Source: Actinomycetota bacterium (GTDB lineage: Bacteria; Actinomycetota; Actinomycetes; Nanopelagicales; Nanopelagicaceae). Taken from it: a stretch of DNA of 13,493 nt. Positions 1,175-13,340 of the stretch are shown here, piece after piece. A program made the translations under genes and the position numbers. Numbering within the stretch: the first letter of the stretch is position 1; the number at the start of each line of letters is the position of its first letter. Under the pieces are notes generated by a model, which ran no database searches, had not been told where the DNA came from, and saw only the letters and a program-made list of their open reading frames with translations. Where the stretch lies: NCBI GenBank assembly GCA_026392815.1, contig JAPLBI010000061.1, positions 1 through 13,493 on the forward strand, written 5' to 3'.

Positions 1175-2526
1175 CTATCCGTGAGCGTGAAGTGGTTTGC
1201 CGGCAAGTGCCATATGCGCTTCACCCATTGCTTCAGAAAGCGTTGGGTGGGCGTGGATCAATGGAGCAACATCATCTGCTGATGCTTCCCAGTTAAAGAT
1301 TAATTGAGCTTCGGCCAGTAGTTCACCGACACGTGAACCAACCATGTGAATTCCTAGAACTGGTCCACCTTTTTGCGAGACCAGCTTTATTGAACCCGCT
1401 GTCCGCAGAATCTGCGCCTTACCGTTTCCGGCTAAGTCATAGTTAAGTTCGACGACGTCATGCCCGCGCTCCTTTGCCTGCGCAGTTGTTAAACCAACAG
1501 AGGCAACCTCTGGCTCTGAGTAAGTAACGCGAGGAACACCGTCGTAATTAATTGGTCGATCTCCTCAGCAACCAAGATGCCTTCTCCGAAACCAACATGA
1601 GCGAGTTGCAGCGTTGGAATCAAATCTCCAACTGCCCAAATACCTGGCACATTGGTGCGGCACTTGTTATCAACCAGAACATAGCCACGATCCATGGTGA
1701 TGCCTTGTTCTTCATAGCCGAGGTTGGCGGAAACTGGACCGCGGCCAACAGCGACCAAGAGGACTTCAGCGGTAAATGTCTTTCCATCTTCCAAAGTTAC
1801 GGTCACGCCATCAGCTGTGACTGCATGGGATTTAAAGCGAACGCCGAGTTCGAAGTTGATTCCGCGCTTGCGGTAGGCGCGCTCTAACTGCTTACTTGAT
1901 GACTCATCTTCCAGAGCCACAAGATGTGGCAAGCCTTCAATAATTGTCACTTCTGCACCGAATGATTTCCAGACTGATGCAAACTCGCATCCGATGACTC
2001 CGCCACCAAGAACAATTACGCTCTTTGGCACATATTCCATCTTCATCGCCTGATCAGATGTGATGACTTTCTTTCCATCAATATCTAGACCAGGGAGAGT
2101 GCGGGCATAAGAACCGGTTGCAAGAAGAATATTTTTTCCTGTGTAGCGAGCGCCATTAACTTCGATGGTGTCCTTAGATACAAGCTTGCCGTGGCCTTCG
2201 ATAAAGGTGATGTTTCGTGATTTAACTAGACCTTGCAGACCCTTATGTAACTTTGAAACCACGCCATCCTTGTAGGCATTAACACCAGTCATATCTATTG
2301 AATTAAAAGTTGCATTTACGCCGAAGTGGCTCGCATCGCGTGCGCCATCTGCAATCTCACCGGCATGGAGCAGGGCCTTAGTTGGGATACATCCGCGGTG
2401 AAGACAAGTGCCGCCTAATTTATCTGCCTCGATTAGCGCTACGGATAGTCCGAGTTGAGCGCCGCGTAGCGCAGCTGCGTAACCGCCACTGCCGCCACCT
2501 AAAACTACGAGATCAAAGTTAGACAC
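1175..2526 (-). pseudogene. lpdA: Dihydrolipoamide dehydrogenase (E3), interrupted by a small frameshifting deletion
   Basis: FAD flavoenzyme that reoxidises the dihydrolipoyl arms of 2-oxoacid dehydrogenases and of the glycine cleavage H-protein, passing electrons to NAD+. The first part shows the FAD-binding fold (VVLGGGSGGYAAALR, about residues 7-21), the redox pair Cys41/Cys46 (GGTCLHRGC) and an NAD-binding GGGVIGCEFAS segment. Reading this frame breaks after EEID at about 1557. The remainder resumes in another frame from about 1555 with PINYDGVPRVTYSEPEVASVGL and runs to the active-site HAHPTLSEAMGE and a TAG stop at 1175. About 16 nt (residues like LNPVP) appear lost; restoring them gives about 455 residues, normal for the family. 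I chose the GTG at 2526 because AAGGAG sits 9 nt upstream. The ATGs at 2547 and 2544 have no ribosome site. The gene is expected to be essential, so artefact must be considered. Confidence 0.9.
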
Positions 2527-2535
2527 GTCTGCTGA

Positions 2536-2541
2536 CTCCTT
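2536..2541 (-). promoter_or_regulatory. Ribosome binding site that sets the lpdA start
   Basis: AAGGAG lies 9 nt before the GTG codon at 2526 and inside the open frame that begins at 2547. This placement favours the GTG start (VSNFDLVVLGGG) over the upstream ATG pair. Confidence 0.65.
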
Positions 2542-2601
2542 CATCACCGAGGGCCACGAAGCGCCTGGATTGAGACCTATCTTGCCAGTTTTAGCGCCCG
2601 A

Positions 2602-4101
2602 TTACGAAATGGCGGCAGATTCAGCAAGGGCCACCAATGAGCGCAGAGCAACTCCAGTGCCGCCAACTGGCGTATAGCCATATGGATCGCCTTCGTTGTA
2701 GGCCGGACCTGCAATATCGAGATGTAACCAAGGTAACTCAGGTGCAATGAACTCCTTTAGAAAGAGGCCAGCGACCATCATTCCACCCATACGTTCACCG
2801 ATATTTGCCATGTCAGCAACAGGTGAATCAAGGGATGCGCGAAGTTCGACAGGAAGTGGCATCGGCCAGAAAGCTTCGCCAACCTCTTTTGTTATTGCAA
2901 AGAAGTGATCACTAAATTCTTGGTTGTTGGTCATGATTGCGCTTGTGCGGGTACCGAGTGCAACAACTTGAGCACCGGTAAGAGTTGCAACATCGACGAT
3001 TCCGTCTAGATCTTTATTCTCTTGCGCCTTCACCAGCGCATCACCAAGGACTAAACGCCCTTCCGCATCTGGGTTTAGGACCTCAATAGTTTTGCCACCA
3101 TACATAGTGATGATGTCACTTGGACGAGTTGCGTTATCGCTGACCATATTTTCAGCAAGCGGCGCGTAACAATCAATGGCTATCGGAAGCTTCAGAAGTG
3201 CGATTGCGATAGTTGCTGCGCAAACAGCAGCAGCTCCCGACATATCGGATTTCATCGCTTCCATTCCGGCAGCTGGCTTAAGCGCTAAGCCACCAGTATC
3301 GAAGGTGATTCCCTTGCCAACGTAAGCGAAGGTCTTACGCGCCTTAGCCTTCACTGGACGATATGAAATTTGAAGTAGTCGTTGTGGATTCGCTGAACCT
3401 TGTCCGACTGCGGTGATTCCGCCATATCCCTTTGCCTTTAACTGTGAATCAGTCATTATCGAAACCTTTAAGCCGGCTGCGGCACCGCCTGCTTTCTTAA
3501 CGATTTCAGTAAATGTCTTGCAGAACGAATCAGGAGTTAAGTGACTTGGGGGAGTGTTGATGAGATCGCGAACAATTGCGGTGTAATCCCCAATAATCGC
3601 TGCTCGTTTAACCGCTGCCTTCGCCTTTGGATCTTGGGCAAGGGATGAGTGAACCGTTACCGACTTAAGGCTCGGGCGGCGATCACTTAGTGAATCAACT
3701 CTAAATTTGTTAAAGACATACGCGCCCATTAGCGCGCCCTCTGCAACAGCTCCGACTGCATTTGTTTTCTTTGCTGGAAGCGAGAAGGTGGCGCTGGAAT
3801 TTCCGGCCAGAGCTCGCGCGGCTGCACCTGCTGCGCGGCGCAGGGTCTCATCGTCGAAGGTGGCTTTATGTTCGCCGAGTCCGGTGAAGATTAATAGACG
3901 CGTACTAGTACCAGGGATTTTAATGACTTCATCGGCCTTGCCAGTTGCACCCATATCGGCCAAGGTCGCCAAAATTTTCTTTGTATCAAGTGCGATATCG
4001 CCACTTTCAATTGTTAGCGAGGATTTGCTCTTCTTATGAGATAGCCCAACTACCAGAATCTCATCTTTGATGATTCCATCAGAGAGGTGGATCGTTGTCA
4101 T
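2602..4101 (-). CDS. pepA: Leucyl aminopeptidase (M17 family cytosol aminopeptidase)
   Basis: Cytoplasmic two-metal exopeptidase that removes N-terminal residues from peptides. Its 499 residues match the family's usual length (about 500). The N-terminal domain (to about residue 165) is followed by the catalytic domain. Metal ligands can be placed by motif: Lys263 and Asp268 in VGKGITFDTGG, Asp286 in MKSDMSG, and Asp345 and Glu347 in NPDAEGRL. The likely catalytic pair is Lys275 and Arg349. The signature is normally NTDAEGRL; here the second residue is Pro344. The ATG at 4101 has a clear AAGGAG 6 nt upstream (4108-4113). It is the first gene of a minus-strand group with lpdA and sucB, although the 75-nt gap before lpdA could hold a separate promoter. 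It is divergent from gcvT. Confidence 0.95.
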   Translation of the reverse strand: MTTIHLSDGIIKDEILVVGLSHKKSKSSLTIESGDIALDTKKILATLADMGATGKADEVIKIPGTSTRLLIFTGLGEHKATFDDETLRRAAGAAARALAGNSSATFSLPAKKTNAVGAVAEGALMGAYVFNKFRVDSLSDRRPSLKSVTVHSSLAQDPKAKAAVKRAAIIGDYTAIVRDLINTPPSHLTPDSFCKTFTEIVKKAGGAAAGLKVSIMTDSQLKAKGYGGITAVGQGSANPQRLLQISYRPVKAKARKTFAYVGKGITFDTGGLALKPAAGMEAMKSDMSGAAAVCAATIAIALLKLPIAIDCYAPLAENMVSDNATRPSDIITMYGGKTIEVLNPDAEGRLVLGDALVKAQENKDLDGIVDVATLTGAQVVALGTRTSAIMTNNQEFSDHFFAITKEVGEAFWPMPLPVELRASLDSPVADMANIGERMGGMMVAGLFLKEFIAPELPWLHLDIAGPAYNEGDPYGYTPVGGTGVALRSLVALAESAAIS

Positions 4102-4186
4102 GTAGAGCTCCTTAAGAAGTAACCTGCGTCGTGGTGACTCGCTACTAAATGATGGTTCTTATCTGGTGGCGATGCTCGGGTAAGTG

Positions 4187-4192
4187 TAAGTT
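4187..4192 (+). promoter_or_regulatory. Candidate -10 box of a leaderless gcvT promoter
   Basis: TAAGTT (TAnnnT) occupies -12 to -7 relative to the A of the gcvT ATG at 4199, so transcription would start at or next to the start codon. There is no Shine-Dalgarno sequence before this ATG. No good -35 box is visible. Confidence 0.5.
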
Positions 4193-4198
4193 GTCTAC

Positions 4199-5287
4199 AT
4201 GAAAAATTCACCACTTGCCGAAAAACATCTTGCACTTAATGCAAAGATGGCCGATTTCGGCGGTTGGTTGATGCCTATTGAGTACCCAGCATCGGGCGTA
4301 ATCGCCGAACACACCGCTGTTCGGGAGCGAGTTGGGATATTTGATGTATCTCACCTCGGCAAAGTCAGCGTGATTGGCGAAGGAGCGCTGGAATTTCTCA
4401 ACTCTGTCTTTACCAATGATTTAAATCGAATTACCGATGGACAGGCCCAATACACCCTTCACTGCAACTCTGCTGGCGGAGTTATCGATGATCTGATTGT
4501 TTATCGAAATAGCCCGACTGATTTATTTCTGATCCCTAACGCATCCAACACATCAGATGTAGTCGCTGCCCTCATGGCTGTTGTGCCTATTGGAATCACG
4601 ATTATAAATCTCCACGAGAAATTTGCAGTCATCGCAGTGCAAGGCCCAAAATCTAAATCGGTCATTGAATCCCTTGGCTTAAACCCTGCGATGGATTACA
4701 TGGCCTTTGAACACATCCAGATTTCAGGGCGCCCTGCCATTTTGTGTCGCACTGGTTACACCGGCGAACATGGATATGAAATTCTTCCAAGCTGGAGCGA
4801 TGCTGGCGCTGTTTGGGAATCCCTGGTCGAAGCAATTAAGCCATACGACGGTTTAATCTGCGGCTTAGGTGCGCGCGATACCTTGCGCACCGAAATGGGA
4901 TATCCACTTCATGGACACGAGTTAACTCTTCAAATAACACCGGTTCAAGCATCAGCCACTTGGGCGATTGGTTGGGAAAAACCAACTTTCAGTGGCGCTA
5001 AAGCGCTTAGTGAGCAACGTGAAGCGAAATCGCACACCAAACTGCGCGCCCTTGTTAGCAAAGATCGCGGTATTCCACGAGCAGGGATGCAGATTAAGAA
5101 TTCAAGTGGCGAAGTTGTTGGCGAGATAACGAGTGGAACTTTCTCGCCAACCTTAAAAAAAGGTATCGCCTTGGCTTTGGTCAACCCCGAATACAAAGTG
5201 GGCGATGAATTAATTGTCGATGTTCGTGGAAGAGTTAGCGTTTCGGTAATTACTAAGTTGCCGCTGGTCACTTCAAACGTGCGCTGA
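4199..5287 (+). CDS. gcvT: Glycine cleavage system T-protein (aminomethyltransferase)
   Basis: Transfers the methylene group from the aminomethyl-lipoyl arm of H-protein to tetrahydrofolate and releases ammonia. The 362-residue protein is full length. It begins NSPLAEKHLALNAKMADFGGWLMPIEY and contains FDVSHLGK, GGVIDDLIVYR (Asp97/Asp98, around the folate-contacting catalytic Asp), CRTGYTGEHGYEI, LGARDTLRTEMGYPLHGHEL and a C-terminal ITSGTFSPTLKKGIAL barrel segment. No ribosome site precedes the ATG, but a -10-like box fits leaderless expression. Its partner lpdA (L-protein) lies 1.7 kb away on the other strand; gcvH and gcvP are not in the window. Its last 20 bases overlap the 3' end of the convergent ECF S-component gene. 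Confidence 0.95.
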   Translation: MKNSPLAEKHLALNAKMADFGGWLMPIEYPASGVIAEHTAVRERVGIFDVSHLGKVSVIGEGALEFLNSVFTNDLNRITDGQAQYTLHCNSAGGVIDDLIVYRNSPTDLFLIPNASNTSDVVAALMAVVPIGITIINLHEKFAVIAVQGPKSKSVIESLGLNPAMDYMAFEHIQISGRPAILCRTGYTGEHGYEILPSWSDAGAVWESLVEAIKPYDGLICGLGARDTLRTEMGYPLHGHELTLQITPVQASATWAIGWEKPTFSGAKALSEQREAKSHTKLRALVSKDRGIPRAGMQIKNSSGEVVGEITSGTFSPTLKKGIALALVNPEYKVGDELIVDVRGRVSVSVITKLPLVTSNVR

Positions 5288-6071
5288 ACTCGACTGGCGT
5301 TAAGAAGGCGGCTTTAGTTCTTGTTCTACGCAGCGCCGATAGAACAGCGGGCGCGGTAATAACAATTAGCGTTGACGTCAAAACAGCTCTTGGAATATCC
5401 CACGCCATTGACGATAGAAAGTGAAAGGTTATAAATCTGTTCAAGTTCTCCCATATGGGAGCTCCTGGTAGATAAGAGAGTTGGGTATCTCCACCTAACG
5501 CCCAAGGCCAGAATTGCAGATCCATTAATAAACCGAAGATCAGGGAAGCAAGAATTGCAATAAAGACCAACAACAAGATTTCTGCTCGCCCCTTAAACCT
5601 TTTCGGGAAAGAACCTGCAAATAAACCCACTAAACCGGCGGCGAAGAGTTGATAAGCAAGCCAGGGTCCAAACCCACCAGTAAGAAGAGCCGATGCCAAC
5701 ATTCCGAGCACGCCCAACAAAAATCCAAATGCCGAACCAAAGACGCGGGCTGCAAGAATTAAAAGAAACCACATCGGTTCAAGACCCACTGCGCCTGCGC
5801 CTAGCGGTCGAAGTGCAGCAAGAAGCGCAGCGAGAGTTCCTAGTAGCGCAACAGATTTAGCATCTAATCCAGAATCACTCAGTTGTGCGATTAACAGAAA
5901 GATTGAAGCAGGAACAGCTGCCCAGAAAAAGTATTGTGCAAACTGCGCCGAACTTTGAGATTGCACATAGAAAGGCCAAGTAAAACCAGCAAATACGGTA
6001 GCCGAAACGATGGCAAGAGCGATTCTCGATCTGCCGCTGAAGCGATAGATATCGTTAGTTAAATACTTCAT
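5268..6071 (-). CDS. ECF transporter S component, probable cobalamin-type substrate-binding subunit
   Basis: Integral membrane protein of 267 residues with about six hydrophobic segments: near 17-33, 47-63, 73-90, 100-135, 140-150 and 165-185, plus one near the C-terminus. Recognisable family motifs include SGLDAKSVALLG, LRPLGAGAVGLEP and LLTGGFGPWLAYQ. S components capture the vitamin and dock on the EcfA-EcfT energy-coupling module. The start overlaps the ecfA stop as ATGA (6068-6071), indicating translational coupling. Substrate is inferred, not read from the protein: the operon sits behind a cobalamin riboswitch, so B12 or a B12 precursor is the simplest choice (compare the predicted CbrT-type systems). 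Alternatives such as another vitamin cannot be excluded. Confidence 0.82.
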   Translation of the reverse strand: MKYLTNDIYRFSGRSRIALAIVSATVFAGFTWPFYVQSQSSAQFAQYFFWAAVPASIFLLIAQLSDSGLDAKSVALLGTLAALLAALRPLGAGAVGLEPMWFLLILAARVFGSAFGFLLGVLGMLASALLTGGFGPWLAYQLFAAGLVGLFAGSFPKRFKGRAEILLLVFIAILASLIFGLLMDLQFWPWALGGDTQLSYLPGAPIWENLNRFITFHFLSSMAWDIPRAVLTSTLIVITAPAVLSALRRTRTKAAFLTPVEFSARLK

Positions 6072-7655
6072 CGGGAATCAGCCTCTTGATCTAGCGCGCG
6101 CATTACATCGTTAACTGTTAACCATCTGCGCGGAGCCATTACTTTTGCTACTTGAGGAGCGAAAGCCGGTGATGCCAATAAAATATCGATCGTTGGTCCG
6201 TCTGCAACAACTTCTCCCTCAGATAAGAAGATAACTCGATCTGCTAGCTCAGCCACGAGTTCTACATCGTGAGTTGCGATAACAACAGCCCTTCCAGGTT
6301 GTGCGGCAAAGCCTTTGAGAATTTCGATCAGCAACGATTTGGATTGATAATCCAATCCACGCGTTGGCTCATCCAGGATTAGCGCGCGAGGTTGTGCAGA
6401 GAGAACTACGGCTAGCGCCAGCGCCAAACGCTGCCCTTCCGATAAATCGCGTGGATGGGTCGCAGGCGAAACTGAAGGAACTAGCTCTTGAAGTAAAGCA
6501 AAGGTCGTTCCGCTTGCGATTTCATTATCTTTATCGGCTTGCGAACACTCTTGCGTAACGCTTTGCGCATATAAGAGATCGCTAGGTTCTTGCGGGATAT
6601 AACCAACGGTTGCGCGGCGCAGCGCACCCTTCAGACTCATTGGGGGGTGGGTGAAAACAGATATCTCACCACGATCCAACTCTTTAACTCCGACGATTGA
6701 TTGCAGAAGTGAACTCTTACCGGCGCCATTTCTACCCATCAAGGCAACTATCTCGCCTTCCATTACAAGTGCATCAACGTTCTTTAGCGCAAGATGTGAG
6801 CCGTAAGAAATCGAAGCTCCCTTAACTGAAATAGCCGTTGGGGTCGTTTCCTTTAGTACCTGCGGATTCTCTTTCCCATCGCGTCTGACATCTTCGGTCA
6901 TTCTTCGAACATCGCGAACGCTAAGACCGAGTTGATTCAATTTAAGGGCGCGCGATAGATGAACGATTGGGGGAGCGATTTCTGAATTTTTTAGGATGTT
7001 TTCTGGGAGATCAATCTGGGCTTGACCATCTCCTGCGATATGAATGATTCGATCAGCAAAACCAATTACTCGCTCTAAGCGATGTTCTGCAATCACAACC
7101 GTCAGGCTGAGGTCGTGTACTAAGCGATGGATGATTGAGAGAACTTCTTCCGCTGCGATCGGGTCAAGTGCGCTGGTTGGTTCATCCAAAACCAAAATCT
7201 TGGGATGCATCACGAGGGCGCTGCCGATTGCTAAACGTTGTTGTTCGCCACCGCTGAGAGTTGAAATCGCTCGATTGCGAAGTGGCGCCAAGGCCAATAG
7301 ATCAAGAATCTCTTCAACGCGTTTGCGCATTACATCCGGAGCCACATTTAGCGACTCCATACTAAAGACGAGTTCTTCTTCAACGGTATCGGTTACAAAG
7401 CCGCTACTTGGGTTCTGGCCTACAATTCCAATGAGATGAGCCAACTCACCTGGTCGCACAAGTTGAGTCGAAATTCCATCAACTGTTACATCACCTGCCA
7501 AAATTCCACCGGTGTGATGCGGAACCAAGCCATTTATTAAACGTAAGAGTGAAGATTTTCCAGTTCCGGTCGAACCAATAACCAGAACCATTTCACCTTC
7601 TTCAATAGAAAATGTCAGTCTTTCTAAAAAGTGAGACATTTGAAAATTTGATCAT
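6068..7655 (-). CDS. ECF transporter double ATPase (two fused ABC domains), 5' end frameshifted
   Basis: Energy-coupling ATPase with two nucleotide-binding domains in one chain. Domain 1 has Walker A GSTGTGKSS, Q-loop VGQNP, signature LSGGEQQR, Walker B ILVLDEPTSALD and H-loop AEHR. Domain 2 has GRNGAGKSS, IPQEP, LSEGQRLALA, ALILDEPTRGLD and ATHD. The longest frame starts at an ATG at 7639 and gives 523 residues, but it lacks the usual first strand and aromatic A-loop. That piece is present one frame over: an ATG at 7655, overlapping the EcfT stop as ATGA, encodes MIKFSNVSL. The frames need 3k+2 inserted nucleotides near 7620-7630; perhaps 8-10 residues are missing. Thus the native start is probably 7655, and the 7639 start is a by-product of the deletion. 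The ATGA overlaps at both ends mark the central gene of an ecfT-ecfA-S operon. Confidence 0.88.
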
Positions 7656-8398
7656 GAAGTCACCGACCAGACAAGACCAAGAAGAACGAGGCAACTAGAA
7701 AAAATCGCAGTATCCGCAGAGCGCCACTTGATTGGGCGATACCTAGAGCGAACTCGACTTACGCCATATCCACGCGAATCCATCGCCGCTGCAAGATCGA
7801 GCGACTTTGCTAAAGCCTCTTCTAAGAGTGGCAGAGCGATGGATTTAAACCTTGGTTTCTCATCGCCTCTTAGAATTCGAGCGCGTTTAATCCGTGAGTA
7901 ACTTGCAACAAGTTGTGGAAGTGATGAGGTAGCAATAACAATCGCAACCCCAAATTCATAAACGATTACGGGAAGTACTCGCAACATTTTATGAGGACTG
8001 GTAAGTGACACCGCTGCACCAAAGAGCGCGATGACAGAGACAATTATCAGCCCCTCATGCAGTGATGAGGTAAGTCGTTCTTGGGTAATAACGCCGCCAA
8101 TGCGGATGCCCGCCATCCAATCCGGTAAAGGAATAATTGGAAGCTCAATGATTTTCGTTCCAGGGATTGGCACACCGATTAATACACCGGTGACTGCTCT
8201 GACAATCAAAATAAAGGCCCCCAAGCGAAGGGAAAACCAGAAACTCTTCGACCAAGGAAAATCTCCAGCCCAGCGCCAAACTATGAGCGCTGCACCCGCA
8301 ATAACCAAAGCAGCATAGAGAGCGCTATTGGCACGAATTACCGTGACGATTAAAGCGATACTCCAAAGCCACCAAGTAAGCGGGTGCAGCGATTTCAT
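7652..8398 (-). CDS. ECF transporter T component (CbiQ/EcfT family transmembrane protein)
   Basis: Membrane scaffold that couples ATP hydrolysis in EcfA to movement of the S component. The 248 residues begin MKSLHPLTWWLW, with hydrophobic segments near 8-45, 55-75, 115-140 and 145-165, then a cytoplasmic helical region carrying the family coupling motifs RIKRARILRG and AAMDSRGYG, and a last hydrophobic segment before the stop. Many actinobacterial relatives carry extra membrane segments after the SRGYG motif; this one has a single one, so it is on the short side. The stop overlaps the ATG of ecfA (ATGA at 7652-7655). The gene follows the SCO2322-like gene by 18 nt without a clear ribosome site, consistent with one operon. 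Confidence 0.88.
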   Translation of the reverse strand: MKSLHPLTWWLWSIALIVTVIRANSALYAALVIAGAALIVWRWAGDFPWSKSFWFSLRLGAFILIVRAVTGVLIGVPIPGTKIIELPIIPLPDWMAGIRIGGVITQERLTSSLHEGLIIVSVIALFGAAVSLTSPHKMLRVLPVIVYEFGVAIVIATSSLPQLVASYSRIKRARILRGDEKPRFKSIALPLLEEALAKSLDLAAAMDSRGYGVSRVRSRYRPIKWRSADTAIFSSCLVLLGLVWSVTS

Positions 8399-8416
8399 AA
8401 CAGTTGAGCGCTTTTC

Positions 8417-8980
8417 TTACTTCTTAAGGGAAGTAGGTGTTGCGATTTCAGTACCGCACTCTTTTGCTGGGTAACCATTGAGACCGCAGATGAGCCCGCT
8501 CTTAGCAGCGCGTACCTTCATGGCCATTCCAAGAACATCGATACCTTGCGATGTCTTTGCGGTACGGACACAAGTTGTGATTGTCTTCTTTACTTTTTCA
8601 CCTTTTGGCGCATACGCCTTCGATCCAAAATCAATCACCAGCGCGATTCGCTTTGTATCTTTATCGGCCTTTGTCTTTCCGCAGATGGATGCAAAGTTTG
8701 GTTTTACTGAAGGGGGAGTTGATGGAATGTCATCGCTGCTGAATACAAATGACCAGCCTTCAACGGCGCCATCTTCAATATCTACTGTTGGACCAGTCAT
8801 TGCAGCAGTCCATGTATTGGCACCGGGAGCTGCTTGGTAATAACCCCAGTAACGCCAACCTTTATCGGCAGCGTTGGCTGAAGCAACTGGAATTATTTGA
8901 GCAGCAACAAGGGCTAGAACGAATAAGGTTGGGGTGAACTTGCGAGACGATATTCCGTTAGACATTTTTAAGTTTAACAT
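8417..8980 (-). CDS. Secreted SCO2322-like protein, first gene of the riboswitch-controlled ECF operon
   Basis: Exported protein of unknown biochemical function, 187 residues. Residues 1-38 form a signal peptide: a basic start with ISSRK, a hydrophobic core FVLALVAAQIIPV, and a likely cleavage after ASANA before ADKGWRYWGYY. The mature part has WRYWGYYQ, a VEGWSF segment, RIALVIDFG and four cysteines (SICGK, TTCVRT, LICGL, KECGT) that could form two disulfides outside the membrane. I recognise the pattern as resembling the SCO2322 family, found beside ECF transporter genes in Streptomyces. An extracytoplasmic accessory role in vitamin capture is conceivable but only inferred from position. 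The start could be the ATG at 8980 or the one at 8965; a GAGAGG 13 nt before 8980 is a distant ribosome site. Confidence 0.78.
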   Translation of the reverse strand: MLNLKMSNGISSRKFTPTLFVLALVAAQIIPVASANAADKGWRYWGYYQAAPGANTWTAAMTGPTVDIEDGAVEGWSFVFSSDDIPSTPPSVKPNFASICGKTKADKDTKRIALVIDFGSKAYAPKGEKVKKTITTCVRTAKTSQGIDVLGMAMKVRAAKSGLICGLNGYPAKECGTEIATPTSLKK

Positions 8981-8985
8981 TATTA

Positions 8986-9020
8986 CTGTGGAGCCTCTCT
9001 AGAAATTAAGAGCCTCACAG
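8986..9020 (-). promoter_or_regulatory. Hairpin just upstream of the SCO2322-like start codon
   Basis: Inverted repeat CTGTG/CACAG (8986-8990 with 9016-9020), with an inner CTCT/AGAG pairing. On the transcript it would enclose the GAGAGG sequence that is the only ribosome-site candidate for the 8980 start. It could be part of the translational switch. No U-run follows, so it is not an obvious terminator. Confidence 0.4.
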
Positions 9021-9067
9021 GGGTAGCGCAATAAAAGTATTGAATCTACTTTTTCTTGAGACTACGC

Positions 9068-9085
9068 CCCGCAAACCTCGGCGGG
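9068..9085 (-). promoter_or_regulatory. Candidate P13/L13 hairpin of the cobalamin riboswitch
   Basis: A CCCGC/GCGGG stem (9081-9085 with 9068-9072) closes an 8-nt loop containing GGUU on the transcript, immediately 3' of the aptamer. The aptamer's conserved CGCAACCGUAAG loop contains AACC (9163-9166), which can pair with it. That matches the L5-L13 kissing interaction known from cobalamin riboswitches. Pairing was judged by eye. Confidence 0.5.
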
Positions 9086-9097
9086 TGTTGGTCAATT

Positions 9098-9247
9098 ACG
9101 CTTTCTGGTGAGGTAATCCGACTTAAGTTCTAGTGGCGCTTTGACTGCCATGAAACTCTTACGGTTGCGGGTCAGCGTCGGATTTTCACCGACTTCCCCT
9201 CAAGAGAAAGTATTGCTATTTAGTTGTAGGTACCTGCGAAGAAAACC
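9098..9247 (-). promoter_or_regulatory. Cobalamin (AdoCbl/B12) riboswitch aptamer
   Basis: Reading the minus strand, the conserved elements occur in order: GGTACCT near the 5' end, GGGGAAGTCGGTGAAAATCC, GCTGACCCGCAACCGTAAG, and the B12 box AAGTCGGATTACCTCACCAG. The ends can close a P1 helix (UUUUCU near 9240-9245 with AGAAAG near 9101). It lies 120 nt upstream of the SCO2322-like gene and its ECF transporter genes. When B12 is abundant, such elements switch off downstream expression. With no terminator U-run visible, control is more likely at translation. Confidence 0.92.
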
Positions 9248-9274
9248 ATAGGTGACGGGTGATAGCAATTCACC

Positions 9275-9280
9275 ACGCTA
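9275..9280 (-). promoter_or_regulatory. Weak -10 candidate for the riboswitch leader
   Basis: TAGCGT on the minus strand fits TAnnnT and would start the leader near 9268, upstream of the aptamer. No convincing -35 box is visible. It sits back to back with the aldo/keto reductase promoter. Confidence 0.25.
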
Positions 9281-9294
9281 CTTAAGAGTGGGGG

Positions 9295-9300
9295 TATGGT
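9295..9300 (+). promoter_or_regulatory. Candidate -10 box of a leaderless aldo/keto reductase promoter
   Basis: TATGGT lies at -13 to -8 of the ATG at 9308. It includes the alternative ATG at 9296, which argues that 9296 is part of the promoter and 9308 is the true start. Confidence 0.45.
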
Positions 9301-9307
9301 TTCGCCT

Positions 9308-10275
9308 ATGGAATATCGTCGCCTCGGCAGCTCAGGAATGTACGTCTCAGAGATTTCTTATGGAAATTGGATAACCCACGGATCTCAGGTTGAGGCTGAT
9401 GCCGCAGTTAAGTGCGTACGCACCGCCTATGACCTAGGCATCACGACATTCGATACTGCAGATGTATATGCAGCAACTAAAGCTGAATCCGTATTAGGTC
9501 GCGCGCTTAAGGGAATCAAGCGTGAATCCTATGAGCTATTTACCAAGGTTTATTGGCCAACTGGTTCAGGTAAGAATGATCGCGGTCTATCTCGCAAACA
9601 CATTATTGAATCCTGCAACGCCTCGCTAAAGCGTCTCAATACCGATCACATCGATCTTTACCAGATGCATCGCTTTGACTATGAAACCCCACTAGAAGAG
9701 TCACTAAGCGCATTCGACGATCTGATTCGTGCTGGAAAAGTTCATTACATAGGTTTCTCTGAATGGAACGCTAAGCAGATCGCAGATGCGCTGCGCATTC
9801 AAGATGCCAAGGGTTACAACCGATTTGTATCAAGCCAGCCGCAATAGTGCCGCTAAGCAAGCGCGAAGGAATCGGACAGATCGTTTGGTCACCTATGGCG
9901 CAAGGAGTTCTAACTGGAAAGTATCTTCCAGGAAAGAAACCACCGGTGGGTTCTCGCGCAACAGATAAGAAATCTGGCGCAGATATGATCTCGCGCTGGA
10001 TGCGCAATGACGTACTTAGCGCAGTTCAAAACCTGGCTCCGATTGCCAGAGACTTAGATTTAACGATGGGTCAACTATCAATTGCCTGGGTTCTTCAAAA
10101 CTCAAATGTTTCAAGCGCGATCATGGGCGCTACAAAGCCAGCTCAGGTAAAAGAGAATGTAAAGGCGTCGGGAGTTAAGTTATCTGCCGATGTCATGCAC
10201 GCTATTGATAAGGCGCTTGGAAATATTCCAACTACCGATCCGAAAGAGACGAAGAGCCCAAACCCTAGGGCTTAA
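9308..10275 (+). pseudogene. Aldo/keto reductase (Kv-beta-like group), split by a small frameshifting deletion
   Basis: NADPH-dependent oxidoreductase of the aldo/keto reductase superfamily; the natural substrate is unknown. The first frame begins MEYRRLGSSGMYVSEISYGNW and, numbered from the 9296 ATG, carries the catalytic tetrad Asp53 and Tyr58 (FDTADVY), Lys84 (TKVYW) and His125 (YQMHRFD). It runs to SSQPQ and then meets TAG at 9845. The next frame resumes from 9847 with VPLSKREGIGQIVWSPMAQG and continues to VLQNSNVSSAIMGATKPAQV, the cofactor-phosphate region, stopping at 10273-10275. Family members have about 11 more residues here (QPQYSMLWR...EAEV), so about 34 nt seem lost. Repaired length would be about 333 residues. 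The ATG at 9308 is preferred because family members start MEYRRLG and a -10 box covers 9296. It ends 1 nt from the convergent DUF3043 gene's stop. Confidence 0.88.
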
Positions 10276-10276
10276 G

Positions 10277-10813
10277 TTAAATCTTTTCGCCAGCTTTCAC
10301 TTGTGGCTTAGGTGCACGCATACGTCGCATTTGTGTGGAACGAAGCCAGCCGTAAAGCCCAAGACCCTTGGTGCTCTTATCTGGGAAACGCTTCGTAATC
10401 TCGGCCTTAATTTTGCGAGATAAGAAGAAGCCATCGATGATTGAGAAGAGAAGAACGCTATACATAATCACGATCCCAGCCACAGCAAAAACACTTAGCG
10501 GGATGAGGGAAAGAATTAACACAAAGCCGATGATTGGAAGGAAATATTCACCGATCGAACGACGGGCATCGATGTAATTTCGAACAAACTTCTTTTCTGG
10601 ACCACGATCACGCATTGGTAGCGCATTCTCATCGCCACGAAGATAGGCCTGGCGCTGCAAGAGACGTGCTGCACGTGCCTGATCTTTAGCGCGCTTCTTC
10701 TCGGCCTTAGTTGACGCTGGCGCTAGTGAAGAAACCTTTGTCGCCGCCTGCGCTTCTTTTCGCTTTGGGGTTGGGCGACCTTTTTTCTGGCTATTTTCTG
10801 GAGTAGAAGTCAT
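10277..10813 (-). CDS. DUF3043 family membrane protein
   Basis: Conserved actinobacterial protein of unknown function, 178 residues. It has a highly basic, Ala/Lys-rich N-terminal tail (GRPTPKRKEAQAA, KAEKKRAKDQARAARL), a conserved block ALPMRDRGPEKKFVRNYIDARRSIGEYFLP, two adjacent membrane helices (about 90-130), and a basic C-terminal tail (GLYGWLRSTQMRRMRAPKPQVKAGE). The tails are likely cytoplasmic. The open frame extends to a TTG at 10819, but the ATG at 10813 is a better start: it has TATAGT at exactly -12 to -7 and no ribosome site. It lies 7 nt downstream of nadA, so read-through from nadA is also likely. Confidence 0.87.
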   Translation of the reverse strand: MTSTPENSQKKGRPTPKRKEAQAATKVSSLAPASTKAEKKRAKDQARAARLLQRQAYLRGDENALPMRDRGPEKKFVRNYIDARRSIGEYFLPIIGFVLILSLIPLSVFAVAGIVIMYSVLLFSIIDGFFLSRKIKAEITKRFPDKSTKGLGLYGWLRSTQMRRMRAPKPQVKAGEKI

Positions 10814-10819
10814 GGGCAA

Positions 10820-10825
10820 ACTATA
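10820..10825 (-). promoter_or_regulatory. Candidate -10 box of a leaderless DUF3043 promoter
   Basis: TATAGT spans -12 to -7 of the ATG at 10813 and includes the TAG stop codon of nadA. No Shine-Dalgarno sequence precedes this ATG. A 6-bp stem with a 2-nt loop (CGAGCA/TGCTCG) lies just upstream inside nadA. Confidence 0.5.
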
Positions 10826-11981
10826 GGGCGAGCATCTGCTCGAGTGCGAGTTTGGAGAACTTGGCTACATTCGGAGCAACGCTAATCTGGTTTACAACGT
10901 GGCCATCGACTAAAGATTCCATCGCCCAAACCAGATGCGGAAGATCGATCCGGTTCATGGTTGAGCAATAGCAAACTGTCTTATCTAGAAAGACAATCTT
11001 CTTATCGGGGTGAGCCTTGGCAAGGCGTGAAACTAAATTCAGCTCGGTACCGATTGCCCATACGCTTCCTGCAGGAGATTGCTCTACAGTTTTGATGATC
11101 ATCTCGGTACTACCTACGACATCAGCGGCGGCAACAACTTCATGTTGGCACTCTGGATGAACCAAAACCTTTACCTCTGGAAGTTGTTTTCTCACCTCGT
11201 TCACAGATTCCAAAGTAAAGCGTCCATGAACAGAGCAATGTCCGCGCCATAAAATTATCTTCGCCCCACGAATTTCTTCAGGAGTTAACCCACCCATTGG
11301 CTTCCATGGATTCCATAGAACGCAATCCTCAAGAGTCAGGCCTAGCGAAAGAACCGCTGTATTTCTACCTAAATGCTGATCGGGGAGGAAGAGAATCTTC
11401 TCGCCTTTGGAAAGCGCCCACTCCATACTCTTCTTAGCATTCGATGACGTGCAGATAGTTCCGCCATGTTCACCGGTAAAACTCTTAATTGCAGCAGATG
11501 AGTTCATATATGTAACTGGAATTGTTGTATCGGCGACGTCAACTTCTTGGAGATCTTTCCAGCATTGAGTTACTTGGTTTGCCGTGGCCATGTCAGCCAT
11601 TGAACAACCGGCAGCGAGATCAGGAAGAATTACCTTCTGGTTATTTGAAGTCAGAATGTCAGCGCTTTCTGCCATGAAGTGAACGCCGCAGAAAATTATG
11701 TATTCAGCACTTGATTGAGCTGCGGCAGCCTGTGCCAACTTAAATGAATCTCCTGTTACATCGGCAAATTCAATTACCTCATCTCGCTGATAGTGATGGC
11801 CCAAAACAAGTGCGCGATCACCAAGTGCCGCGCGAGCAGCCCTTGCTCTAGAGATTAAATCAGGATCACTCGCTTCAGGCAGTTCACCGGTACAAGAGAC
11901 GCCTCGCTCAGATGCCAGATCGCGACCCTGCCCAAGAAGGAGCAGATCAGTCAGCGATGTCGAGCGAGTAGGTGTGGACAT
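10821..11981 (-). CDS. nadA: Quinolinate synthase A
   Basis: [4Fe-4S] enzyme that condenses iminoaspartate with dihydroxyacetone phosphate to quinolinate in de novo NAD synthesis. The 386 residues from the ATG at 11981 begin MSTPTRSTSLTDLLLLG and match the longer Streptomyces-type NadA. Motifs are LGHHYQRDEVIEFADVTGDSFKL, YIIFCGVHFMAESADIL, GCSMADMA, YMNSSAAIKSFTGEHGG, CTSSNA, ILWRGHCSVHGRF, HPECQHEVV, ELNLVSRLA and TVCYCSTMN; the conserved cysteines in FCGVH, HPECQ and TVCYC include the cluster ligands. The open frame continues to 12131 across erpA on the other strand, but that is non-homologous shadow. Alternative starts at 11999 (ATG) and 11987 (GTG) cannot be excluded; none has a good ribosome site. 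It is divergent from the Fe-S carrier gene, which suits an Fe-S enzyme. Confidence 0.95.
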   Translation of the reverse strand: MSTPTRSTSLTDLLLLGQGRDLASERGVSCTGELPEASDPDLISRARAARAALGDRALVLGHHYQRDEVIEFADVTGDSFKLAQAAAAQSSAEYIIFCGVHFMAESADILTSNNQKVILPDLAAGCSMADMATANQVTQCWKDLQEVDVADTTIPVTYMNSSAAIKSFTGEHGGTICTSSNAKKSMEWALSKGEKILFLPDQHLGRNTAVLSLGLTLEDCVLWNPWKPMGGLTPEEIRGAKIILWRGHCSVHGRFTLESVNEVRKQLPEVKVLVHPECQHEVVAAADVVGSTEMIIKTVEQSPAGSVWAIGTELNLVSRLAKAHPDKKIVFLDKTVCYCSTMNRIDLPHLVWAMESLVDGHVVNQISVAPNVAKFSKLALEQMLAL

Positions 11982-12010
11982 GGACACATTCTCGCGCATA
12001 TTTAGGGTTG

Positions 12011-12025
12011 CTGTCGCATCGACAG
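12011..12025. promoter_or_regulatory. Perfect 6-3-6 palindrome between nadA and erpA; candidate operator
   Basis: CTGTCG-CAT-CGACAG is a perfect inverted repeat in the short divergent promoter region. It covers -38 to -24 relative to the erpA start codon, overlapping where the -35 element of its leaderless promoter would lie, and it lies about 30 nt upstream of the nadA ATG. A shared regulator for both genes is possible. I do not recognise the motif. Confidence 0.4.
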
Positions 12026-12036
12026 TAGGTGGCAGG

Positions 12037-12042
12037 TAGTCT
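12037..12042 (+). promoter_or_regulatory. Candidate -10 box of a leaderless erpA promoter
   Basis: TAGTCT occupies exactly -12 to -7 of the ATG at 12049, the same spacing as at gcvT and DUF3043. There is no Shine-Dalgarno sequence. Confidence 0.45.
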
Positions 12043-12048
12043 TTACCC

Positions 12049-12477
12049 ATGACTACAGAGACATCGAACTCAACAACAGAAGCGCCAGCATCGACTGGCC
12101 CTATCGTCCTGACAGAAGTTGCCGCAGCCAAGGTAGCAGCGCTCCTTGCTCAAGAAGGTCGCGATGATCTCTACCTCCGCGTTGCTGTTCAGCCAGGTGG
12201 TTGTTCGGGCTTGCGCTACCAGCTCTACTTCGATGATCGCGATCAAGAAGGCGATATCTCACATCAATTCGGAACTGTAAAAGTTGTTGTAGACAAGATG
12301 AGCGATCCATATTTGATGGGCGCCTCAATTGATTTCGTTGACACGATTGAGAAGCAGGGCTTCACAATTGATAATCCAAATGCTGGCGGATCTTGCGCCT
12401 GCGGCGATTCTTTCAACAGTTCACCGACTCACTCGTTGCTGGATCACTCGAAAAAGTTTCACTCTCATTTCTCGTAG
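12049..12477 (+). CDS. erpA: A-type iron-sulfur carrier (ErpA/HesB family), stop codon lost so the frame runs on
   Basis: Small scaffold/carrier that delivers Fe-S clusters to target enzymes; NadA, encoded next door, is a plausible client. Residues 1-25 are a variable tail. The HesB fold follows with VAVQPGGCSGLRYQLYFDD (first conserved Cys) and, at the end, the paired cysteines in GGSCACGDSFN, giving the C...C-x-C cluster site. Relatives such as Mycobacterium Rv2204c end exactly at GDSFN; here that is residue 123, ending at 12417. Instead of a stop, the next codons read SSPTHSL... to TAG at 12477. Those 19 extra residues are out-of-frame sequence of the adenosine-kinase-like gene that follows. 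A deletion has therefore removed the erpA stop. The native gene should be 12049 to about 12420. Function is probably retained if the tail is tolerated. Confidence 0.88.
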   Translation: MTTETSNSTTEAPASTGPIVLTEVAAAKVAALLAQEGRDDLYLRVAVQPGGCSGLRYQLYFDDRDQEGDISHQFGTVKVVVDKMSDPYLMGASIDFVDTIEKQGFTIDNPNAGGSCACGDSFNSSPTHSLLDHSKKFHSHFS

Positions 12478-13340
12478 ATGGCCTGGAAGTTCGCCGTGGG
12501 GGATGCGCAGCAAATATCGCATTCGGTATGGGTTCACTCGGCCTTAATCCAATTTTGATCGCGGCCGTTGGAATCGACTGGCCAGATTACGATGCTTGGT
12601 TGGTGCGCCATGGCGTTGATACATCACATGTTTTAGTTTCCACAACGCTTCACACCGCACACTTCATGGTGACCACAGATACCGAGTTAAACCAGATCGC
12701 ATCGTTCTTTCCTGGTGCGATGTCGGAAGCGCGCAACATTGAGCTTTCACCAATTATGGAAAAGACCGGCAAATTAGATCTGATTGTCATTTCACCTGAT
12801 GACCCAGAGGCGATGTTGCGCCACTCAGAGGTAGCCCGCCAAGAGGGAATTGCTATAGCGGCTGATCCTTCACAGCAGATGGCTCGTATGTCTGGCGAAG
12901 ATATTAAGAAGTTGATTACTGGGGCTACCTACTTATTTATGAATGAGTACGAATTGGCGCTTGCGATTCAGAAAACTGGTTGGAGCGATCGTGAGATTCT
13001 CGAACAAGTTAAATTCCGAGTCGTGACACTTGGTTCTGAAGGAGCGAGAGTCGAGTCCCTGCATGGCGAAACAATTAAAGTGACAACGCCGAAGGAAAAA
13101 TCTCAGACTGATCCAACTGGAGTTGGTGATTCATTTAGATCTGGATTTGTTGCCGGTCTGGCCTGGGGCCTAAACCACGAAAGATGTGCGCAGTTAGGTT
13201 CGATGATCGCTACTTATGTAATTGAAACAACTGGCACACAGGAGTACCGCTTTACTTCAGCAGAATTCTTAGCGCGCTTTAAAGAGGCATACGGTGCTAG
13301 CGCTGCTGCTGAGATCGAACCTCATCTACCAAAGCGTTAA
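12420..13340 (+). CDS. PfkB-family kinase, adenosine kinase (AdoK/CbhK)-like, N-terminus deleted
   Basis: Ribokinase-family sugar/nucleoside kinase most like Mycobacterium Rv2202c (AdoK), which phosphorylates adenosine. Homologous sequence begins at 12420 with FTDSLVAGSLEKVSLSFLVDG. It contains the GG pair in VRRGGCAANIAFGMGSLG, FFPGAMSEARNIEL, DPSQQMARMSGE, TYLFMNEYELAL, and the anion-hole and catalytic-base motif DPTGVGDSFRSGF near the C-terminus. From that point there are 306 residues, against about 304 in the mycobacterial protein. Missing are only the first roughly 20 residues, the TGSIATDHLM-type substrate-binding strand, together with the start codon. An upstream in-frame TTG at 12393 gives a longer frame, but its first nine codons are erpA sequence read in another frame. 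As drawn the gene is 5'-truncated. Its 3' end overlaps the convergent cysteine desulfurase by 44 bases. Confidence 0.87.
   Translation, partial: FTDSLVAGSLEKVSLSFLVDGLEVRRGGCAANIAFGMGSLGLNPILIAAVGIDWPDYDAWLVRHGVDTSHVLVSTTLHTAHFMVTTDTELNQIASFFPGAMSEARNIELSPIMEKTGKLDLIVISPDDPEAMLRHSEVARQEGIAIAADPSQQMARMSGEDIKKLITGATYLFMNEYELALAIQKTGWSDREILEQVKFRVVTLGSEGARVESLHGETIKVTTPKEKSQTDPTGVGDSFRSGFVAGLAWGLNHERCAQLGSMIATYVIETTGTQEYRFTSAEFLARFKEAYGASAAAEIEPHLPKR

Follow-up and report, generated by a model that had tools for sequence, protein, structure and literature searches.

Apparent short deletions at four loci of a Candidatus Planktophila draft genome are very probably errors of contig joining

The DNA stretch analyzed here (the window; 13,493 nt) corresponds to contig C29 of G000, a draft genome of Candidatus Planktophila that comprises 1,228,979 bases (1.23 Mb) in 207 contigs with a completeness of 82%. 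The window contains, in this order, sucB, lpdA, pepA, gcvT, ECF transporter genes, a small protein gene, an aldo/keto reductase gene, a membrane protein gene, nadA, erpA and adoK. Several of these gene names are interpretations based on Pfam hits and gene order. The nearest named relative found for the window was Candidatus Planktophila lacus MMS-21-148 (L035, NZ_CP016769.1), a complete isolate genome that is collinear with the window over its full length at 92.9% identity. In contrast to this overall likeness, four loci that are broken in the window (Table 1) are all intact in P. lacus. The sucB-like gene (positions 1-1158) codes for two similar lipoyl-type N-terminal segments and an Ala/Pro-rich linker, which displays natural-looking in-frame indels of 12 and 9 nt relative to P. 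lacus.

Table 1. Junctions and affected reading frames in the window.
Feature	Position	Strand	Observation
Junction 1, lpdA (dihydrolipoamide dehydrogenase)	1555..1559	-	16 nt absent, frame broken (P. lacus alignment)
lpdA ORF	1489..2547	-	352 aa as read, truncated; 461 aa in most relatives
Junction 2, 5' end of ECF transporter ATPase gene	7628..7630	-	26 nt absent after 7628 (alignments)
ECF ATPase ORF	6068..7639	-	523 aa from downstream ATG; 542 aa in P. lacus
Junction 3, interior of aldo/keto reductase gene	9846..9847	+	34 nt absent after 9846, frame broken (alignments)
Aldo/keto reductase	9296..10275	+	split into two ORFs (9296-9847 and 9847-10275); 337 aa in P. lacus
Junction 4, erpA/adoK	12417..12418	+	100 nt absent after 12417 (alignments)
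erpA (iron-sulphur biosynthesis A-type protein)	12049..12477	+	reads on beyond lost stop
adoK (pfkB-family kinase)	12393..13340	+	own start missing; called length 315 aa, versus 324-326 aa in most relatives

The original prediction, made from the window sequence, had placed short gaps in lpdA, the ECF ATPase gene, the aldo/keto reductase gene and at the erpA-adoK boundary, with guessed sizes of about 16, about 26-29, about 34 and at least about 63 nt. Alignment with P. lacus confirmed all four gaps and gave sizes of 16, 26, 34 and 100 nt. The frame losses were also as predicted (3k+1, 3k+2 and 3k+1 nt, plus a lost stop/start pair). Junction 1 was located after position 1555 by global alignment and after 1558 by BLAST; the remainder of lpdA lies downstream of the truncated ORF in a different frame. 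As the reading frame of the ECF ATPase remains open starting at the downstream ATG (7639), the damage at junction 2 is limited to the first codons. The 100 nt missing at junction 4 comprise the stop codon of erpA, the spacer, and the start codon and first codons of adoK. Within genic regions, the P. lacus side of the global alignment with the window was free of frame-breaking gaps. Remaining indels of the window relative to P. lacus were a 15-nt insertion close to a start codon and a single 1-nt intergenic insertion. At position 9282, a non-coding 15-nt gap upstream of the reductase gene might be either natural or a fifth join. Comparison of the 500-nt flanks with P. lacus revealed a less similar right side at the ECF ATPase (0.920 vs 0.960), the reductase (0.886 vs 0.928) and the erpA/adoK junction (0.890 vs 0.960), while both sides were equal at the lpdA junction.

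Nucleotide alignment with close relatives, proposed as a check in the original prediction, detected the gaps in the window alone. In multiple alignments, none of the aligned genus relatives exhibited the gaps in lpdA (n=13), erpA/adoK (n=11), the ECF ATPase gene (n=10) or the reductase gene (n=9), and the 16 nt missing from lpdA of the window were present in 13 of 13 relatives. The comparison was extended to 92 other loci (sets of 13 and 79, with several genomes included twice, e.g. L022 and L044). A split lpdA was found in none of them (86 intact, 4 cut by contig ends, 2 absent), nor was a split reductase gene (47 intact, 1 partial, 44 absent). For the ECF ATPase gene, 60 loci held an intact copy, 3 a cut copy and 28 none; the one split copy was interrupted at an N-run of the draft genome UBA5975 (L051). 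Since the start of adoK is invisible to such a tally, it was examined separately in the loci containing both erpA and adoK, where the adoK alignment began no later than residue 3 in all 56 cases. A lineage-specific deletion common to relatives was therefore rejected, as the same junction occurred in no independent genome compared. Stops reported in lpdA of two relatives (G014 and G008) were dismissed, because the two loci contain long uninterrupted frames (456 and 455 codons).

Metagenome protein listings were available for LpdA, the ECF ATPase and adoK, covering the best 120 matches each. Among the best 120 of 8000 scored LpdA relatives, the shifted tail of the window protein was found in none and the intact stretch in 119. 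One of them, P0014 (461 aa), represents 146 contigs and is 100% identical across the aligned 93%. The adoK start of the window occurred in 1 of the 120 listed proteins, namely the window's own P0241, which represents a single contig of 13493 bases; 113 proteins possessed a longer N-terminus and 6 were short or started later. None of the 120 listed ECF ATPases shared the start found in the window. Their length was 531 to 547 aa in 118 cases, and two were shorter (504 and 476 aa). The nearest listed non-window ECF ATPase and adoK proteins are 97% identical, so that at these two loci intactness is documented for close relatives rather than for the exact strain.

Frame-breaking deletions recur across the assembly. 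From G000, 61 contigs including the window were sampled, of which 40 were unmasked (351 kb). The indel comparison comprised 25 contigs (227 kb) aligned to 800 kb of P. lacus; the other 15 unmasked contigs may fall in the 45% of P. lacus outside the compared 800 kb. With 13 deletion events close to N-runs excluded from the counts, 13 frame-breaking deletions of at least 8 nt within genes were opposed by 2 insertions in 227 kb (sign test, P 0.007), and these deletions were spread over 10 of the 25 aligned contigs. Five further deletions are located at gene edges; two of them, with 100 nt in the window and 110 nt in L174, span gene boundaries, and three of 14 nt look natural. Only 3 of 15 deletions within genes were multiples of three, a random distribution of frame classes as expected where selection has not acted. 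The window displayed a higher density (4 in 13.5 kb) than the remainder (11 in 213 kb, one at a gene boundary), having been chosen for its deletions. A single MAG (G042) served as control. Of its 20 sampled contigs, 15 were unmasked, and 9 stretches totalling 72 kb were aligned to P. lacus, to which G042 is less closely related (80 to 88% identity). These 72 kb contained no frame-breaking genic deletion of at least 8 nt; at the frequency seen in G000, 4.1 would be expected, and the Poisson probability of finding none is 0.016, a modest value. The control showed one gene-edge deletion, one insertion in a doubtful 82-aa ORF and 12 frame-breaking indels of less than 8 nt within genes, compared to 5 in G000.

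The same assembly contains joins that are visible as such. Of the 40 unmasked contigs (351 kb), 12 contained N-runs, 17 in total with lengths of 1 to 106 nt, whereas the control sample harbored none. Thirteen of the 17 were comparable with P. lacus, and their N count was off by -85 to +124 nt (mean spacing error +11, SD 56). At contig L170, a single N adjoins an uncollapsed overlap, i.e. the overlap is written twice. For comparison with junctions lacking Ns, 17 were selected by judgement from 25 deletions of at least 14 nt touching genes, leaving aside three multi-block deletions, three 14-nt deletions at gene edges, of which one is repeat-mediated, and two additional repeat-mediated ones. According to P. 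lacus, gap sizes ranged from -15 to 135 nt at the N-runs and from 16 to 116 nt at the 17 selected junctions. The two ranges overlap without a clear difference (Mann-Whitney test, P 0.057, and 0.18 when restricted to positive gaps), the N-less gaps tending to be somewhat larger (median 47 vs 26). Passages of Chen et al. (2020; PMC7111523) describe scaffold-join and local errors in metagenome assemblies and draft MAGs that result in incomplete or incorrect genes, and report for IDBA-UD and CLC assemblies that Ns were introduced although the flanks overlapped. The situation in L170 resembles the latter. In contrast, joins without Ns that lose tens of bases, as we propose here, go beyond the description in those passages.

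All these results suggest that the four apparent deletions of the window are very probably scaffold-join errors of the draft assembly and not biological; the four joins lacking Ns might equally be worded as false closures. The genes most likely look broken because the assembly butted contig pieces together and omitted the short stretches between them. We infer that contigs were joined at the junctions without Ns and that the genes are intact in the cell. The assembler would have put contigs in order, probably with the help of paired reads, and would have written as many Ns per gap as it estimated, its estimates being off by tens of nucleotides. Where the estimate was zero or negative, the contigs would have been abutted or falsely closed without Ns, and the unassembled 16 to 116 nt between their ends would simply be missing from the sequence. 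Several lines of evidence argue for such errors: the intactness of all four loci in the collinear, complete P. lacus genome, the recurrence of frame-breaking deletions across G000 and their lack in the control, the wrong-length N-runs and uncollapsed overlap of the same assembly, the overlapping gap sizes with and without Ns, and the intact LpdA relatives listed, including that representing 146 contigs. They also support the assembly artefact considered in the original prediction. Blunt junctions and undiminished constraint in the broken genes, described below, point in the same direction. Secondary structure of the missing stretches was tried as a cause of assembly breaks and rejected, as random segments of P. 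lacus gave matching fold energies (mean z 0.04, 22 deletions).

Whether the deletions could have arisen in the cell was judged from coding constraint and junction homology. The share of substitutions at third positions was 0.861 in 14 broken genes and 0.848 in 196 others, and nonsense codons amounted to 1 in 5009 codons compared to 8 in 64428. On account of this unrelaxed constraint and the nonsense counts, gene decay or pseudogenes were rejected, in agreement with the original prediction, in which random decay had been regarded as unlikely. The same values speak against real, recent microdeletions in the strain, by which blunt end-joining in a decaying or hypermutating lineage would have broken core genes. 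In favor of such events, the deletions are clean and were seen only in G000, and the blunt junctions would fit end-joining. However, they would have struck lpdA and erpA, both usually essential, in a genome with few small frame-breaking indels (the 5 of less than 8 nt within genes). Moreover, the N-runs demonstrate that joins of equal size went wrong in the same assembly, and 146 contigs are represented by an intact LpdA that matches fully across the aligned 93%. We thus consider real microdeletions highly improbable. A Planktophila strain that really underwent a genome-wide burst of blunt, repeat-independent core-gene deletions of 16 to 116 nt, too recent for visible decay, seems very improbable as well.

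The alternative raised in the original prediction, a genome in which short repeats promote slippage, was not supported for the window. Homology at its four junctions was 2, 1, 0 and 0 nt, i.e. at the random level (mean 0.69 nt), and the mean of the 17 selected junctions was 0.59 nt. Over all 22 single-block deletions the mean was 1.95 nt, raised by three clearly repeat-mediated deletions in other sampled contigs with homologies of 6 and 8 nt (L120) and 19 nt (L119). Some deletions in the G000 sample are therefore probably repeat-mediated and natural, but polymerase or replication slippage between short direct repeats is an extremely implausible origin of the four gaps in the window. A similarly clean set of deletions limited to one assembly would be expected from template switching during single-cell whole-genome amplification. 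Amplification chimeras usually show short homology, and an artefact of this kind leaves the wrong-length N-runs of the same size and the overlap beside a single N unexplained; in place of scaffolding, we regard it as a very remote explanation. In association with repeats, G000 and P. lacus differ in length at about position 6180 of L160, about 1317 of L119 and about 2986 of L120 (a 26-nt insertion and deletions of 30 and 57 nt), which are unlike the blunt gaps.

The apparent loss of lpdA, erpA and adoK function in this draft should be kept out of metabolic or pseudogene inference. Real deletions would mean that a freshwater lineage had lost usually essential genes, for which there is no other support here. 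Blunt, frame-random losses of tens of bases, combined with short N-runs of odd length elsewhere in the assembly, provide a cheap means of spotting errors of this kind in other drafts.

Among 93 loci of relatives, N-runs were restricted to two UBA drafts, UBA5975 (L051) and UBA7398 (L095). Both resemble the G000 assembly in having N-runs, but belong to species other than that of the window. UBA5975 contains N-runs at positions 1766 and 7157, within the ECF ATPase and lpdA genes, and its ECF ATPase frame breaks at one of them, differing between the two sides of the N-run. Close relatives of the Planktophila region were also found in public MAGs labelled Bifidobacterium breve (L038, L062 and L103) and Streptomycetaceae (L040, L054 and L082), labels that look wrong.
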